From Calothrix anomala FACHB-343 (GTDB taxonomy: Bacteria > Cyanobacteriota > Cyanobacteriia > Cyanobacteriales > Nostocaceae): a stretch of DNA of 58,676 bases. This document shows positions 51,524-58,676 of this stretch, one piece after another. A program made the position numbers and the translations under genes. The number at the start of each line of letters is the position of its first letter. The stretch's first letter is position 1. The stretch covers positions 1-58,676 of the forward strand of contig NZ_JACJQG010000063.1 in NCBI RefSeq assembly GCF_014696435.1, written 5' to 3'. The notes under the pieces are model-generated. The model searched no databases and had not been told where the DNA came from. It saw only the letters and a program-made list of their open reading frames with translations.

Positions 51524-51874
51524 TTATTTTGCCTTTTCTTCTTTCTCATAATCCTCATCATCGAGTTCTGCAAGTCCACTAATTACAACAGGTGGGCGAT
51601 CGGAAAATTTGACAACAAGTTCAAGTTCCCCTCCCATTGCATTCAAATAACCGCGTAGAGTTGACAGCAGAAGATCAGTACGTTTTTCCAGCTTTGAGAT
51701 ACTATCCTGGCGAATCCCTAACAATTCTGCCATTCGCTCTTGAGTAAGCTCCCTTGCTTTTCTGATATCCTGAAGCGTCATATATTCAGCAATTAACTCG
51801 GCTGCTCGTGCTTCGATTTTTTCGACGCGATCGCGTGGAAGTTTTTGCATTATTTCATTGAGATTCTTCGCCAT
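51524..51874 (-). CDS. XRE-family antitoxin (HigA-like)
   Basis: 116 residues from ATG 51874, supported by AAGGAG 8 bases ahead (TTG 51880 is possible). An HTH_3 domain covers about 32-85: LQDIRKARELTQERMAELLG, then DSISKLEKR. The C-terminal tail is acidic (LDDEDYEKEE), as in antitoxins that cover a basic toxin. It lies 12 bp after the toxin, toxin-first order, which is typical of HigBA-type modules. Confidence 0.85.
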   Translation of the reverse strand: MAKNLNEIMQKLPRDRVEKIEARAAELIAEYMTLQDIRKARELTQERMAELLGIRQDSISKLEKRTDLLLSTLRGYLNAMGGELELVVKFSDRPPVVISGLAELDDEDYEKEEKAK

Positions 51875-51886
51875 CACCAATACTCC

Positions 51887-52240
51887 TTATTCTTGCAATC
51901 GACTCAGATGCTCAGTAAATCGTTTATCAGCTTTTGCTATAAGTTTTTTGTAAAAGCGCTTTTGACTCGTTCCTGCTTTATCTCCAGCCATAAGCAAGAT
52001 TCCTTGGCGCTTTGGATCGAAAGCAAAAGCGACTCGCCACACTCCACCTGATGCTTTAAACCGAAGTTCCTTCATATTGTCATACGAAGAACCATTGAGC
52101 GTATCCGCATAAGGTCTTTTAAGATGCGGTCCCTGACATTCAAGCAATTTTGCATAAGCCAGCAATTCATCCTGAACTTCTTGGGGAAGCTCATAGAACT
52201 CAGGCTCAAATTCTTCATGAAATAAAACTTCCCACGCCAT
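51887..52240 (-). CDS. RelE/HigB-type toxin (phage Gp49-like)
   Basis: 117 residues. The compact RelE-fold pattern is visible: FHEEFEPEFYELPQEVQDEL, KRPYADTLNGSSYDNMKELR, GGVWRVAFAFDPKRQGILLM then AGDKAG, and basic KRFYKKLIAKADKRF. Phage-derived Gp49-like/HigB toxins cleave mRNA at the ribosome. First gene of the toxin-antitoxin operon, transcribed away from the recombinase start 58 bp away. Confidence 0.85.
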   Translation of the reverse strand: MAWEVLFHEEFEPEFYELPQEVQDELLAYAKLLECQGPHLKRPYADTLNGSSYDNMKELRFKASGGVWRVAFAFDPKRQGILLMAGDKAGTSQKRFYKKLIAKADKRFTEHLSRLQE

Positions 52241-52297: not shown

Positions 52298-53287
52298 TTG
52301 TACTTTCAGCGCCTAAATACCGAGACCATAGGAGTAAAAGGAGGAGTGATTTTTGGTCAAATTGAGTTTGGGGGTAAAGTTACACCCATTACACCCATTA
52401 GAAAGTCCCAACCTCAATTAGATGAACTTTGGGACAAGTATAGCGAGTTTAAGAAACCGCAAGTTAGTCCGAGTACTTTCGCCAAAGACTTTACTAAGCA
52501 TCGAAATCACATTGCTAAGTTACCAACGCGATCGCTAGATGAGGCATCTGCTATTCGAGATCATCTGTTATCGAATCTCACTCCAGATGCAGCAAAGCGC
52601 TGCTTAACCCAACTGAAAGCTTGTTGTAATTGGGCAATGGATGAGGGATTAATCGACACTAACCCTTTTGCCACTATGAAAATCAAAGTCCCTAAGGGTA
52701 CTTCCGAGGAACAGGACGTTAATCCTTTTACCAAGGAAGAGAGAGATTTAATTATTCGTACTTTCGCTAGCGATCGCTACTATAGCCATTACACGAACTA
52801 TGTGCGCTTCCTTTTCTTCACGGGGTGCAGACCATCGGAAGCAGTTGCCTTGAAATGGAGGAACATTACTAATAGTGTGATTCAGTTTCGGGAATCTGTT
52901 GTTGTCTCCGAAGATGGCTTAGTCCTCAAAGAAGGACTGAAAACCCAAAGAAAACGGGATTTTCCAATTAATGCAGAGGTAAAAGCAATTTTAGATGAAA
53001 TTAGACCTGAGGGAGATAACCCTGAATCTCTATTGTTTATAAGTCCCAAAGGAAAATTTATTGACCATCACAACTTTGCTAACCGTGCATGGAAGTCAAT
53101 CTTAGATAAGTGTAATGTCCCTTATCGTAAAAGCTACCAGACACGACATACCTTTATTAGTTTATGTGTGGAAGCACATATTAATAGCACTGCGATTGGT
53201 AGATGGACTGGAACTTCAGCCAAAATGATCGACAACCACTATGGTGCAACCAACTTTACAAATCTCAGACCACCTGAGCTTTCCTAA
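52298..53287 (+). CDS. Tyrosine recombinase (integrase)
   Basis: 329 codons from TTG 52298; the true start may be later, near AAGGAGG at 52338-52344. The SAM-like core-binding domain covers about 45-130. The catalytic domain has Arg in FFTGCRPSEAVALKW, Lys in GLKTQRKRDF, RH in YQTRHTFISL (Tyr replaces the first His of HxxRH, frequent in cyanobacterial integrases), GRWTGTS and the nucleophile Tyr in DNHYGATN. Catalytically complete. The N-terminal arm domain looks short. Adjacent to the tRNA-Gly remnant and a toxin-antitoxin pair: an integrative element. Confidence 0.85.
   Translation: MYFQRLNTETIGVKGGVIFGQIEFGGKVTPITPIRKSQPQLDELWDKYSEFKKPQVSPSTFAKDFTKHRNHIAKLPTRSLDEASAIRDHLLSNLTPDAAKRCLTQLKACCNWAMDEGLIDTNPFATMKIKVPKGTSEEQDVNPFTKEERDLIIRTFASDRYYSHYTNYVRFLFFTGCRPSEAVALKWRNITNSVIQFRESVVVSEDGLVLKEGLKTQRKRDFPINAEVKAILDEIRPEGDNPESLLFISPKGKFIDHHNFANRAWKSILDKCNVPYRKSYQTRHTFISLCVEAHINSTAIGRWTGTSAKMIDNHYGATNFTNLRPPELS
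52379..52400 (+). repeat. Paired TTACACCCA repeats, right set (inside recombinase ORF)
   Basis: GTTACACCCATTACACCCAT holds two TTACACCCAT units 10 bases apart, on the strand opposite to the pair at 50098-50120. Being in the first codons of the recombinase reading frame, they may also mean the recombinase starts further downstream. Confidence 0.4.
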
Positions 53288-54155: not shown

Positions 54156-56369
54156 ATGAGTGAAATGGGTGAAAATCAACCTCTTACTAGAAGGGAACGT
54201 ATAGCTGAGATACTTGAGAAACGCAAACCTTTGTCTCAAAAAATTGACCAAGCACGTAACTATGTTAAAGAACTATTGTCAGCGTTGAGCTTGCTTGACG
54301 ACTTGATTCCAGAGTATCAGAGACTTAGCGCATCTTCTGAAAATCTCAAGAAAATTGCAATAAATGAAATTATCGTTACTAAAGACATTCAGTCAACTCT
54401 AAATTCTCAGCTAGAACATCTTTTTTACTTATACGAACGTTTCTCTAAACCTCCTCTAAAAATTGCTGTGGCTGGTCTTCCAAAGGAAGGAAAAAGCACT
54501 TTTATCCGTGCAGTTACTGAACTAAGGGAGGAGGTAATTCCTTCATCAGAAGAATTATGCACAGGTGCATCATCTACAATTTATAATCATGACAGCACTG
54601 AAACCTATGGAGAGATAGAGTTTTACTCTAGTGATGTTTTCCTTAAGGAAGTAATTCAACCTTATTATAATGAATTAAACCTAACAGATAAGCCGATAAG
54701 TTTGGACGCATGGAAGCAACCTTCATTTACAAAGCAAGATGCGATCGAACAGACAAAGTACAAGCGTCTGTTAGCATATTATGAAAAATACTCTAAATAT
54801 AAAGACTACTTAAACCAAAAGCAGATAAGAGTTGCAGAGAATGATATTCGGCAATACATTGCTCAGGTAGATATAAATAAACAACCAATTGATATATACC
54901 GGTCTGTAAAAAATGCCACAATATATACAAAATTTCCCAATCATGATGTTGGTCAAATTGCTTTGTTAGATACTCCTGGGCTGGGAGAATTACGAAGTAG
55001 AGAAGAAGAGAAATTGGTAGAAATCCTTCGTAAAAGTGCAGATATTGTAATTTGTCTTATTCTTCCAAAACATAAAGCATTTACTTATCAGGAAAGCCAC
55101 ACTAACTTTTTCAGTCTAATGCAGAAAGGAATTGGACAGGCGGATAAGAGATGTCTGCTAGTACTGAACGATGACGGTAATAACTCTCAAGCTTGTCAAA
55201 GACTTTCTCAGCAAGATAAGCTAGCTGAGTGGACTTTAACTTTCGCTAAAGTTTTCGTTGCTAATTGCTCTAAGCCTGAGCAAGTTCAATCTCAAGTAGT
55301 CGATCCCACTATTAATTATTTAGCTGAAAAAATTTCTTCGCTTGATTGGGATGACACACAACATAGGTTTAATAGTATTCTTGAACAATGTGCCCAGACC
55401 TCTGATATTCTGCATAGAATTAACGTAGAATCATCTGGAAATATAGACATTTCTAGCCAAAGATACAGAAAACTGTTCGAGAAGGACTTTGTGCCAAAAC
55501 TGAGTAATGCATTCAAGCAAATGCAACAGTATTTTTTTAACAGGCAAGATATTTCATCAGTTAAGAAAATAGTGAGAGATAAGGTCAATGCTCTTGAGTT
55601 TAGCATTCCTTCTGCACAAGAAATTGAGTTACGAAGAACGCCAAAAGAAACCTACGACAAAGTATTTATAGAAATATTAGGAGAACTTCGTGTACAAGGA
55701 TGGCGGCACTTTCAAGACCTTGATATTCAACTTAGTCCATTGGTAGATGAATTAAAAAAGATTGTTGCAGATGAGTTCCATAAAATTGGATTAGACAGGT
55801 TATCAAACAGAGAGGGCAGTGATTTCATTGAAAATATTTATACTTTAATTCCAAAAACTTGTCCAATGCTCAAATTAGCATTTCAAATGCTTAAAGAATT
55901 TGAATTGGCTTACTTTTGGTTAATTAGAGTTAAGATTTATGAAGGGCTAGAAATTCTAGATCCTCGGAAAAATAATTTAAAACCAGACAGCAGCAATTCT
56001 AGCAAACCAGTGACAGCAGAATTATTTTACCAAGCTCTAGATGCAAGCTGCATAGCAGCTAAGTCTAAACTACTTGCTTTGCTTGGTGGAGATGCTACAG
56101 ATGACTTTTCTCCAAATAATGCTGTGCGAGCAGCTTTGGAGGAGTTTATTGATTTAGTATTTTATGCTTGGGACGAGCAGGGTAGAGGAATCGTCTCAGG
56201 TGAATGGCAAGACTTTCTAGAACCCCATAAAAGAAAAATTTGGGCAGAAGATTTCGGAAAACTTGAGCAAGAGATTGAGTTGAGAGACAAACTATCTAAC
56301 GCCGTGGAGCAAGCGAGAAACTCTATAACGAAATTACAGCGAATCTGCAATTTGGAAGGTGTATTATGA
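54156..56369 (+). CDS. Dynamin-like GTPase, first gene of a three-gene operon
   Basis: 737 residues. A helical N-terminus (1-100) with coiled-coil character is followed by a GTPase domain: G1 GLPKEGKST (107-115), G2 Thr near 136 (CTGASS), G3 DTPG (272-275), and G4 probably in VLNDDGNN. An insertion of about 120 residues lies between G2 and G3. The remaining 350 residues are mostly helical. This is the layout of the dynamin family rather than of Era/Ras GTPases. No membrane helix is seen. Its stop overlaps the next ATG by 4 bases. Confidence 0.75.
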   Translation: MSEMGENQPLTRRERIAEILEKRKPLSQKIDQARNYVKELLSALSLLDDLIPEYQRLSASSENLKKIAINEIIVTKDIQSTLNSQLEHLFYLYERFSKPPLKIAVAGLPKEGKSTFIRAVTELREEVIPSSEELCTGASSTIYNHDSTETYGEIEFYSSDVFLKEVIQPYYNELNLTDKPISLDAWKQPSFTKQDAIEQTKYKRLLAYYEKYSKYKDYLNQKQIRVAENDIRQYIAQVDINKQPIDIYRSVKNATIYTKFPNHDVGQIALLDTPGLGELRSREEEKLVEILRKSADIVICLILPKHKAFTYQESHTNFFSLMQKGIGQADKRCLLVLNDDGNNSQACQRLSQQDKLAEWTLTFAKVFVANCSKPEQVQSQVVDPTINYLAEKISSLDWDDTQHRFNSILEQCAQTSDILHRINVESSGNIDISSQRYRKLFEKDFVPKLSNAFKQMQQYFFNRQDISSVKKIVRDKVNALEFSIPSAQEIELRRTPKETYDKVFIEILGELRVQGWRHFQDLDIQLSPLVDELKKIVADEFHKIGLDRLSNREGSDFIENIYTLIPKTCPMLKLAFQMLKEFELAYFWLIRVKIYEGLEILDPRKNNLKPDSSNSSKPVTAELFYQALDASCIAAKSKLLALLGGDATDDFSPNNAVRAALEEFIDLVFYAWDEQGRGIVSGEWQDFLEPHKRKIWAEDFGKLEQEIELRDKLSNAVEQARNSITKLQRICNLEGVL

Positions 56370-57375
56370 CTACTTTTAGAGTTTTAATGCTTGGTTATCA
56401 ACGAGTTGGTAAGACAAGTCTTTTAGCTTCTATGTACAGAGCAACTCAAAAAGAGCTTGCTGGAAATTATCAATTCCAAATAAAACATGGAAATGATCTA
56501 ACATCTCAACTTCTGAGTAAAGCAGAAGATAACTTAAAATGTGCAACTGAATATATTTTTGGTGATGCAATTGCACCCACGAATGTATTACGTACCTTTT
56601 TATTTCAAATGTACTCGAATGAGCAAATGCTTTTTCAAGTGGAATTTTTGGATTACCAAGGTGGTAGACTAATGGATTCGAGTACTTCTGATGCAGCAAC
56701 GGTACGAGAGTGGTTAAATACATGTGTTGCTGTCATTATTCCTATTGACTCACCATCTCTGATGGAAAGTGAAGGTGAGTGGGCTAAGTTGATCGATGAA
56801 TGGAATAATCCTGAGGGCATTGAAAATATTTTCAGGTCAGAGATGAATAGAAATACCCCCAGATTGGTTATCTTATCACCTGTTAAGTGTGAAAAATATA
56901 TTCAATAACAAAGAGGTGAAGAACTCAGAAGGAAAGTAGAAGATGTATATGAAAATCTACTTCATTATCTCAGTGCAGAACCTGATTTAAGAAAGAATTG
57001 TATTGTTATAGCACCAGTTCAAACAATTGGGGGGCAGTATTTACTGGCTTTAAAAAAGATCCTAATAAAGGAATCCGACCGACATACGTTAATACTAAAG
57101 GCGAATATAAACCACAGGATGGAGATCAATTACTCAGGTATATAGCTCGCTTTGCACTGGCTCGTATCAATAAAGAAAATCTTGTTCGATTTAATGAGAT
57201 TAACCAAAAAATTGAAGAAGGTGGTTTATGCCCTCCCTCAGGGGCAAGACAAGAAAAAGAAAATCTGACGAAACAGATCATATTGATGAAGTCAGGATTG
57301 GCACAATTCTCTCAAAGTTGCAAGCAGGAAGGCGCTTTTAGAATTGTTAGCGGGGGAAGCTTACTAAATAGTTAA
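56366..57375 (+). pseudogene. TRAFAC-type GTPase, interrupted by stop and frameshift
   Basis: The first 180 codons carry P-loop LGYQRVGKTSLLASMYRATQ and G3 DYQGG (96-100), similar to the GTPases of predicted bacterial conflict systems (DO-GTPase group). TAA at 56906-56908 breaks the frame; past it the same frame goes on (QRGEELRRKVEDVYENLLHY, CIVIAPVQTIGG) to a run of six G (57030-57035). There a -1 shift is needed to continue as AVFTGFKKDPNKGIRPTYVN and onwards to TAG 57375. The intact product would be about 336 residues. Translationally coupled to the dynamin-like gene. Confidence 0.65.
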
Positions 57376-57385
57376 ACCTAAATTT

Positions 57386-58474
57386 ATGGATATCTTTGTA
57401 CAAAGTAGAGGCGAAAAATGGTCACAGGAATATACTTGGGTCAAAAATAATCAAAAGACAGATGAACCCTCTATATTGCATCCTTTACGTCCAGTTATTT
57501 ATGGAAATAATAAATCAGTTTTTTACATAACACATTTTTATGATTGCGAACAACCTTCTATCATAGTTGTGAGATCTAAGGAACAACTACTACTTCTATT
57601 AACTGGTATCAAAGCAGAATGGGATGCTCCTGGCGGAGCAATTTATCATTCTGTAGCTTGGTTGAGTAGCAGTAAGTCTCTTTCAAGAGAGGAGAACGTC
57701 ATACGCAAATTGATAATTCGTGCTTTGGATGACAGGTTGCAGAATGAGATTTCCTCAGTCATAACTGCAACTACCGAAAATGAACATGGTTTTTATATAA
57801 ACATTAGCAGACTTGAACAGCTTGAAAAAGATGAAAGTTTGCTACTTGTCAATGGTAAGAGTGATGATCATATTGACAAGATAGGTACAAATAATGAAAA
57901 GTTGAAAGCTGATCTTATAAAGGAGTTGACAAGTCAGAGTTTACTCCAAGAAGAAGGTGTTCTGATTGTGGTAAGTGACTTTGTTACTAAAGAAGTTTTT
58001 CGAGAAGCAAAAGTTTGGCGAGGTTTGTCCGGGAAATTGAAGAATGAAGCTTGGGAGGCGTATGAGCGAGAAAAAAAGTCTCCTCCAGAAGAGGAATCCT
58101 GGAGAAGGAAGAAATTAATTTTGGTAATGTTATTTCTGGTGGCAGTAATATTAGCAGTGCTGTTAATAGGTCAAAGCCAGAGGGAGAATCCTTTGTTCAA
58201 CCCCCAACACCCACAGAAAGAGCAGAAACAGACAGAAAAAAGCGAACACAAAGAGCAGAAACAGGCAGAGAATCCTGTGATAACACCTCCAAGCGAACAC
58301 CAGGAGCAGAAACAGGTAGAGAATCCTTTGACCCCACCTCCAAGCCAACGCCAGGAGCAGAAACAGGTAGAGAATGCTTTGACCCCACCTCCAAGCCAAC
58401 ACCAGGAGCAGAGTTTGATGATGAGCGTTCCGATCAAGAAGACTGCAAAAGTAAACCTTCAAGACCACAGCTAA
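57386..58474 (+). CDS. Membrane protein with repeat tail, third gene of GTPase operon
   Basis: 362 residues. A cytoplasmic-type domain (1-230) of no recognised family includes SVAWLSSSKSLSREENVIRK and a helical stretch before the membrane. One TM helix spans about 234-254 (LILVMLFLVAVILAVLLIG). The C-terminal tail is made of 17-residue repeats (QEQKQVENPLTPPPSQR). It follows the GTPase gene by 11 bp and is probably the third operon member. Its end lies 17 bp from the IS630 transposase stop, so the original C-terminus may have been cut off by the insertion. Confidence 0.65.
   Translation: MDIFVQSRGEKWSQEYTWVKNNQKTDEPSILHPLRPVIYGNNKSVFYITHFYDCEQPSIIVVRSKEQLLLLLTGIKAEWDAPGGAIYHSVAWLSSSKSLSREENVIRKLIIRALDDRLQNEISSVITATTENEHGFYINISRLEQLEKDESLLLVNGKSDDHIDKIGTNNEKLKADLIKELTSQSLLQEEGVLIVVSDFVTKEVFREAKVWRGLSGKLKNEAWEAYEREKKSPPEEESWRRKKLILVMLFLVAVILAVLLIGQSQRENPLFNPQHPQKEQKQTEKSEHKEQKQAENPVITPPSEHQEQKQVENPLTPPPSQRQEQKQVENALTPPPSQHQEQSLMMSVPIKKTAKVNLQDHS
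58213..58420 (+). repeat. Tandem 51-bp coding repeats
   Basis: Copies begin near 58250, 58301, 58352 and 58403 (period 51 bp); the 58301 and 58352 copies differ by only a few bases. A degenerate shorter unit precedes them at 58213. The last copy is cut short. They encode Gln/Glu/Pro-rich 17-residue units. Confidence 0.8.
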
Positions 58475-58491: not shown

Positions 58492-58676
58492 TCAGGTAAA
58501 TAGACCACAGTGATGGAACCAACCGAAGGCATCATCTTCGGTAATATAATTGACAGCAAAAGCCATTGATTGGTCGAGTGATTCCAATGTGCGTGCTTCA
58601 CAGGAACGGAGAAATTGCTTGAGTTTCGACAAACACAGTTCTATGGGAGATAAATCCGGAGAGTATGGAGGTAAAA
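58492..58676 (-). mobile_element. IS630-family transposase, C-terminal part (runs off window)
   Basis: The minus-strand frame, open at the right edge and ending TGA at 58494-58492, reads [20 protein letters not shown] and ends [12 protein letters not shown]. The [11 protein letters not shown] block with its Glu is the third catalytic region of DDE_3/IS630 transposases. The N-terminal two thirds lie beyond the window. The element's end should be in the 58475-58491 stretch; it matches the remnant at 179-200. Confidence 0.85.

Follow-up and report, generated by a model that had tools for sequence, protein, structure and literature searches.

What three adjacent genes of a cyanobacterium do together, and whether they belong together at all, is the question raised by a stretch of DNA from Calothrix anomala FACHB-343 (contig NZ_JACJQG010000063.1, 58,676 nucleotides), which was analyzed over its whole length and is called the window here; it is one whole contig of a 9.2-Mb genome in 144 contigs. 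The three genes, at 54156-58474, encode a dynamin-like protein (DLP), a Ras-like GTPase (gene 2), and a membrane-anchored partner (third gene), and an original prediction made from the sequence had taken this trio for a candidate conflict or defence system. Our analysis indicated that the trio is a conserved gene unit and not a chance arrangement, and that it is a new, accessory, and probably conflict-related GTPase/dynamin cassette. As to its role, we favor the reading that it is a three-part membrane-acting GTPase cassette used in conflict with phages or other invaders, to which we give a probability of roughly one half.

A gene unit kept in one order

Relatives of the trio were collected in two sets. 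The first consisted of 40 stretches from genomes of the order, each picked around a match to the DLP or to gene 2, and the second was taken from a scan of a species-genome collection with a DLP alignment, as the best 80 of 231 relatives, partly covering the same loci; the two together are the 120 fetched DLP loci referred to below. A genome scan with a single DLP sequence as query found no relatives. All three families were present in 32 of the 40 first-set stretches. In the second set, gene 2 and then the third gene lay directly downstream of the DLP gene in 49 of the 80 loci, and 6 more had one or two open reading frames (ORFs), or a second gene 2, in between; four loci were cut by the contig end, three behind the DLP gene and one behind gene 2. 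The search for intact trios among gene neighbors, which the original prediction had proposed as a check, resulted in 62 distinct trios from both sets, all in the same order, with median gaps of 18 and 13 bp and with both gaps shorter than 60 bp in 48 of them. Furthermore, the pairwise distances of the three proteins were correlated (Mantel r of 0.72, 0.61, and 0.75), a correlation to which species relatedness contributes. A duplicated form found in two Calothrix (L127 and L135) reads DLP, gene 2, three third genes, and gene 2, and in another locus (L112) genes 2 and 3 are present in two copies behind the DLP gene.

Of 291 genomes of the order, 90 had the third protein, 4 of these by weak matches only, and they represent 53 of 122 genera; the DLP was found in 41 of 99 relatives at an E value of up to 0.001. 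DLP matches were also obtained in ten plasmid records, eight cyanobacterial and two actinobacterial, with six of the ten matched over at least 80% of the DLP; the Nonomuraea "plasmid" record is chromosome-sized, with a length of 11.85 Mb. A Streptomyces aurantiacus plasmid carries the same gene order, with E values of 4.8e-84 for the DLP and 2.3e-27 for the GTPase (profile 99.4%), and its third protein, which was missed by a plain profile search, was recognized by profile–profile comparison (77%, E value of 2e-5). The Nonomuraea trio, again in the same order, was matched with E values of 1.1e-205, 1.9e-96, and 4.3e-16. All genes of the trios on the Streptomyces and Nostoc carneum plasmids are annotated as "hypothetical protein." Gene 2 had no match in 50,697 phage records and one weak match of 49 residues among IMG/VR contigs, and searches of the genome of the window itself found no second copy of the DLP gene, gene 2, or the third gene. 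Because many cyanobacteria and some actinomycetes keep the three genes together as a unit, sometimes on mobile DNA, the trio is probably a stress or anti-phage device.

The three proteins

The DLP gene (54156-56369, forward strand) is intact, with 737 open codons as predicted, and its product matches Dynamin_N with an E value of 9.2e-9 and 36 bits against a cut-off of 27. All 25 rows of a DLP alignment match Dynamin_N (PF00350) at an E value of up to 0.1, and G112, K113, and S114 as well as D272, P274, and G275 are among its invariant columns, indicating that the P-loop and the DxPG motif are present. Judged by its GTPase domain, the protein is a member of the bacterial dynamin-like proteins. 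The nearest solved structures by sequence, with the profile of the alignment as query, were yeast mitofusin Fzo1 (E value of 2e-4) and the immunity-related GTPase IRGB10 (4e-4). In the five DLPs that were checked by hydropathy, no membrane helix was evident.

The end of the DLP gene overlaps the start of gene 2 by 4 bases (56366-56369), as had been read from the sequence. The prediction of a second P-loop GTPase of a conflict-linked type held with respect to its kinship and failed with respect to its integrity in the window. The frame that starts at 56366 (first part of gene 2, 56366-56908, forward strand) ends at an in-frame stop at 56906-56908, and the remainder of the protein lies in another frame of the same strand, in the ORF 56998-57375. 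With the intact sibling protein as query, both pieces were located, one of them containing the TAA. This intact protein, of 336 residues, is encoded in a sibling genome, G002 (L071:8143-9153:-). DO-GTPase2 (PF19993) was matched by 26 of the 28 rows of the gene-2 alignment (A3) at an E value of up to 0.5, the best being 8.4e-13, and the sibling protein of the window gene reached 16.7 bits, which is below the cut-off of 27. The model of an intact relative (L142, 326 residues, predicted local distance difference test score [pLDDT] of 87.5) has a Ras-like GTPase fold, and its solved structural neighbors, at modest TM-scores, include elongation factors, G-alpha, SRP receptor beta, a Loki RagA-like GTPase, atlastin, GIMAP2, and YcjX. 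DxPG forms the G3 motif, with no obvious glutamine after it, and D105 and G108 are invariant in the alignment. The base-recognition motif reads KCE, which looks unusual beside the textbook NKxD. By its family matches, the gene 2 product is related to the conflict-linked double-GTPases and is placed near them. Loci with a long form of gene 2 (~425 residues; L149, L158, L162, L174, and others) often have an extra small gene (~150-240 residues) behind the third gene; such small genes form a BLAST cluster in 13 of the 120 loci, some fetched twice, and the copy in L174 has no Pfam family.

The third gene (57386-58474, forward strand; 362 residues) starts 10 bp behind the ORF 56998-57375, instead of the 11 bp given by the original prediction. 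The description of its product as a one-pass membrane protein with a repeat tail was borne out, with AlphaFold2 folding residues 1 to ~230 at a pLDDT mostly above 90 and placing one helix at 235-267, followed by a disordered tail, the repetitive nature of which was read from the sequence. The window protein has no Pfam match that attains the cut-off of the family, and no family is found repeatedly over the N-terminal domain of its relatives. Of 79 third proteins, 71 have a membrane segment that is clear by hydropathy, and, because lysine and arginine are richer before than after the segment in 52 of the 71, the N-terminal domain is predicted by the positive-inside rule to face the cytoplasm. 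The protein ends no more than 15 residues after the segment in 24 of the 71, tails elsewhere being up to 455 residues long, and PG_binding_1 was found behind the helix in 1 of 32 third proteins (5.2e-11).

Two candidate identities of the N-terminal domain were tried and not adopted. A Foldseek search with this domain gave no match at an E value of up to 0.001 among the matches listed, and the top match, to the FLCN-FNIP2-Rag-Ragulator complex, was not significant, with an E value of 0.06 and a probability of 0.60. The 50 matches listed included 18 fluorescent proteins and 13 from entries that contain TagF or longin/DENN regulators of Rag, Rab, or related GTPases; as the search was not significant, a longin fold was kept as a lead only. 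On inspection by eye, two features of the third protein recur in GAP1-N2 and in the partner proteins of another dynamin cluster (L225, see below), namely a start of the form Y..R/S, then D-Y/F, and a D..GR motif. This GAP1 likeness is also a lead only, because comparison with a GAP1-N2 profile of 11 sequences gave less than 1% each time (0.5%, 0.1%, and 0.2%). In one locus of another genome (G056, L088:4753-7417), the third gene appears to be split in two, as an insertion might have left it.

Mobile DNA, conflict modules, and the likely function

In G002, an integrase and a trio that are 97-98% identical to those of the window sit in a tRNA-integrated genomic island. The integrase adjoins a tRNA-Phe gene, and 46 bp including the 3' end of that gene are repeated exactly, in the same orientation, 24.8 kb away. 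The cargo comprises the trio, a 124-residue ORF, an ORF with a weak InsA-type zinc ribbon, a serine recombinase, type I restriction-modification genes (two HsdM, HsdS, and HsdR in pieces), a PD-Lambda-2_B-like protein (2.7e-32), a 722-residue protein without identification, and further small ORFs. The tRNA-Phe flank is kept in 9 of 9 genomes of the genus, and, because integrases of the same family, whole or partial, lie beside it in 4 of the 9 (G001, G002, G003, and G008; L209-L220), the site is regarded as an integration hotspot in the genus. The sibling genome also holds a second, diverged trio (L107:2273-12873), the third protein of which was recognized by profile (73.7%, E value of 2.9e-5); a metacaspase-like gene (E value of 3.8e-21 to Metacaspase-1) and, by eye, a TPR-type gene lie upstream of it.

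Conflict-type modules are joined to the trio in three loci, one from Argonema antarcticum (L136) and two from metagenome-assembled genomes (L170 and L182). The DLP is fused there behind AAA_35, with HEPN_Swt1 also in the fusions of L136 and L170, a further AAA_35-like gene lies upstream, and an AAA_35 protein with a vWA match, over the cut-off in L136 only, lies behind the trio. This results in a five-gene version consisting of AAA_35-like, AAA_35(-HEPN_Swt1)-DLP, gene 2, third gene, and AAA_35/vWA (L136:2897-12104, L170:2892-12333, and L182:183-8904). The flanks were represented by 115 of 256 eligible proteins around 57 named loci with gene 2, and the controls by 115 of 169 eligible proteins from 20 random regions of ten genomes, which were not matched to the trio loci; family counts cover the best 25 of 127 and 139 families for flanks and controls, respectively. 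Among the families listed, AAA_35 had 7 flanking members and was not among the 25 of the controls, Uma2, which is a putative restriction endonuclease in Pfam, was present in 7 flanks and 2 controls, and GmrSD_N was present in 2 flanks. These AAA_35 members most likely correspond to the seven genes of this kind in L136, L142, L170, and L182, and an AAA profile built from those same loci matched 11 proteins in 4 of the 120 loci and none in the 20 control regions.

Because the family is accessory, can be carried by tRNA-integrated elements and plasmids, and can be joined to NTPase, HEPN, and vWA modules, we regard use in conflict as the most likely function. Several results weigh against this reading. 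The mobile and defence context of the original prediction was found in the G002 element with its restriction genes and in the AAA_35/HEPN_Swt1 fusions, and it is not supported as a general feature of the trio: an integrase of this kind was present in just 1 of the 120 fetched DLP loci, and the AAA_35 excess is not a broad trend, because it comes from four loci. Among the families listed, there was no general flank excess of restriction-modification or CRISPR families, the controls holding Cas6 in 2 and Cas1, Csc2, and N6_Mtase in 1 each. Homologues in housekeeping contexts, which the original prediction had named as counterevidence, were found in part; 11 locus maps read by eye show mostly ordinary neighborhoods (the mapped L089 and L149 are one locus fetched twice), and several mapped loci are plain chromosomal, with common rhomboid or MEKHLA-like neighbors named by eye. 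PADLOC gave no full-length match for the trio proteins of the window, in which gene 2 is in two pieces, its results being only a LeoA match of 44 residues for the DLP (E value of 0.001) and weak matches around the membrane helix for the third protein. Finally, 20 of the 80 second-set loci had neither partner among the next three ORFs and one had gene 2 without the third gene, so that the DLP also occurs alone, and the third protein is present in many species of some genera (six genomes of g60 and eight of g129, the genomes lacking it being listed in part), as a physiological gene might be.

The trio had been thought to be undescribed, and no description of it was found in the open-licence literature searched. 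A 2020 survey defines DO-GTPase/GAP1 conflict systems and reports that cyanobacteria lack them almost completely (Kaur et al. 2020, PMC7159879). In the sections concerned, these systems resemble the trio in having a related GTPase as the likely switch, a partner directly downstream, membrane-linked parts, and some mobile neighborhoods. The trio differs in that it starts with a dynamin-like protein, the word "dynamin" having 0 occurrences in PMC7159879, and in that one cyanobacterial order has its third protein in 90 of 291 genomes. It also differs from the systems of those sections in its partner, which is without GAP1-N2, and apparently in gene 2, where an invariant glutamate is absent beside the DxPG motif; between reference columns 89 and 182, none that is invariant or nearly so was listed as a candidate counterpart of the conserved Walker B glutamate of those systems. 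GAP1-N2 was not found in 39 cyanobacterial genomes. Because the glutamate and GAP1-N2 features of the DO-GTPase systems were looked for and not found, we set the trio outside them and file it, on these sequence features, as a relative and not a member. A 2018 review describes, in one section, an HSR1 clade of cyanobacterial DLPs with a GTP-binding protein gene downstream, for which a regulatory function was suggested (PMC5827413). The order, a DLP gene and then a GTP-binding protein gene, is the same, and this may be the pair formed by genes 1 and 2 of the trio. The third protein, the mobility, and the conflict links are, however, absent from that section, and the consensus of 25 relatives lacks the P-loop extension that the review describes as a mark of nearly all cyanobacterial DLPs.

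The constant linkage suggests that the three proteins act in one pathway, for which an order of events may be proposed from their families. The third protein would anchor a regulatory domain at the cytoplasmic side of the membrane and serve as a docking site or regulator of the small GTPase, which would be a switch flipped by a cue such as phage entry or envelope damage. The flipped switch would then cause the DLP to gather on the membrane and remodel it, with the outcome of either a sealed membrane and delayed lysis, as proposed for DynA of Bacillus, or a ruptured membrane and death of the infected cell. As described in the parts concerned, DynA of Bacillus (PMC8844932) and LeoABC (PMC4159319) resemble the trio in being dynamin-family GTPases at the membrane; the LeoA profile covers only 44 residues of the trio DLP, and DynA is reported to delay phage lysis and stabilize the membrane. 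Thus, the abortive infection guessed by the original prediction could be just one of several ways in which a dynamin acts. The trio joins dynamins and double-GTPase-type switches, which have been studied apart in bacteria, in one conserved gene set, and is a candidate relay telling a bacterial dynamin when and where to act. Many cyanobacterial "hypothetical" genes would thereby gain a testable joint function, and, with complete trios available in named strains such as Nostoc carneum NIES-2107 (plasmid3, NIES2107_74360 to NIES2107_74380) and Calothrix sp. PCC 7103, the defence claim is directly testable. A farther-reaching version, which we consider rather unlikely, is that the trio is a complete GTPase relay like that of eukaryotic membrane traffic, with a Ras/Rag-like switch, a membrane-anchored longin-like regulator, and a dynamin machine, forming one transferable immune or cell-death cassette in cyanobacteria and actinomycetes.

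Among the alternatives to conflict use, the one that survives best, and that we tentatively keep as a possible though clearly less probable explanation, is a membrane stress or signalling module, with envelope sensing by the small GTPase and its membrane partner and with the DLP in a repair or signalling role. As far as the published accounts bear on it, the soluble dynamin-like GTPase RdcA is a signal input to a diguanylate cyclase (PMC6510439), and group 1 Rup GTPases have as neighbor a protein that combines an unknown domain with a membrane helix and a peptidoglycan-binding end (PMC4316618); the PG_binding_1 domain in one third protein also fits such a module. The group 1 Rup neighborhoods are thus like the trio in combining a Ras-like GTPase with a one-helix protein of unknown domain, whereas their other members, in the part concerned, are a coiled-coil protein and a signalling enzyme and that of the trio is a dynamin, a word with 0 occurrences in PMC4316618. 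The patchy presence in 90 of 291 genomes, the plasmids and the tRNA element that carry trio genes, and the HEPN and AAA_35 fusions argue against a stress or signalling role. It is improbable that the trio is a lineage-specific membrane trafficking set of cyanobacteria that serves housekeeping membrane biogenesis at the thylakoid or septum, although the DLP relatives that carry names are mostly cyanobacterial and DLPs are discussed for thylakoid dynamics in part of the 2018 review (PMC5827413). Gene 2 is present in just 30 of 194 genomes of the phylum even with weak matches included, 19 of them at an E value below 1e-50. Moreover, the trio is present in Streptomyces and Nonomuraea, which have no thylakoids. 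Least probable of all is that the trio serves the mobile element itself, in transfer, maintenance, or exclusion of rival elements: it adjoins an integrase in G002 and in the window, it is borne by plasmids, once two genes from a TrsK-like transfer gene, and type IV coupling-protein families were found in 2 of the 115 flanking proteins among the families listed, but that kind of integrase is restricted to a single fetched DLP locus and no mobile gene is evident close to many of the mapped copies.

The copy in the window and related clusters

The copy in the window may be a recently broken remnant of the trio, part of the break being alternatively an assembly error. Gene 2 and the third gene differ from the sibling copy by a synonymous divergence (dS) of 0.009-0.020 in pieces of 118 to 328 codons, and it is because of this near identity that the break of gene 2 is judged to be recent, or partly an assembly error. 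The DLP gene is more diverged from its sibling copy, with a dS of 0.093 and a ratio of nonsynonymous to synonymous divergence (dN/dS) of 0.20. The contrast in dS between the DLP gene and the next two genes (window 54156-58474 vs L071) may point to recombination within the gene set.

The recombinase, toxin-antitoxin, and IS630 genes that the original prediction had placed around the trio were all located, the first of them incomplete. The tyrosine integrase (52298-53287, forward strand; Phage_integrase, E value of 1.5e-8) is ~80 N-terminal residues shorter than the intact copy of 384 residues that lies beside tRNA-Phe in G002, and the DNA common to the sibling begins there. The toxin-antitoxin pair (51524-52240, reverse strand), composed of an HTH_37 antitoxin (51524-51880, 1.1e-8) and a Gp49-family toxin (51887-52240, 1.6e-22), is outside the conserved trio. 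Behind the trio, translation revealed the end of a transposase gene, presumably of the IS630 family (58492-58676, reverse strand), at which the contig stops. The shortened integrase, the broken gene 2, and the insertion sequence end behind it therefore suggest that the window contains a decayed piece of an element like that of G002.

Two clusters related to the trio were also observed. On the Stanieria cyanosphaera plasmid pSTA7437.02 (L290:415-13661), a DLP of the trio family is followed by another GTPase of 389 residues, with an NB-ARC gene upstream; a 992-residue protein in the same locus has a start that is GAP1-N-like by eye, with a profile match that is not significant, and neither the Stanieria nor the Streptomyces plasmid yielded GAP1-M. 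In another sibling genome, G001 (L225:6807-15744; G001:C1, ~8198000-8216000), two dynamin-type proteins (Dynamin-like_hel_bact, 7.7e-150; Dynamin_N, 3.3e-25) are clustered with a DO-GTPase1/DO-GTPase2 pair (3.3e-15 and 5e-7) and with two paralogous partner proteins of 404 and 461 residues without family; the tRNA-Phe end occurs there in a second copy, at a distance of 2-11 kb from this cluster.

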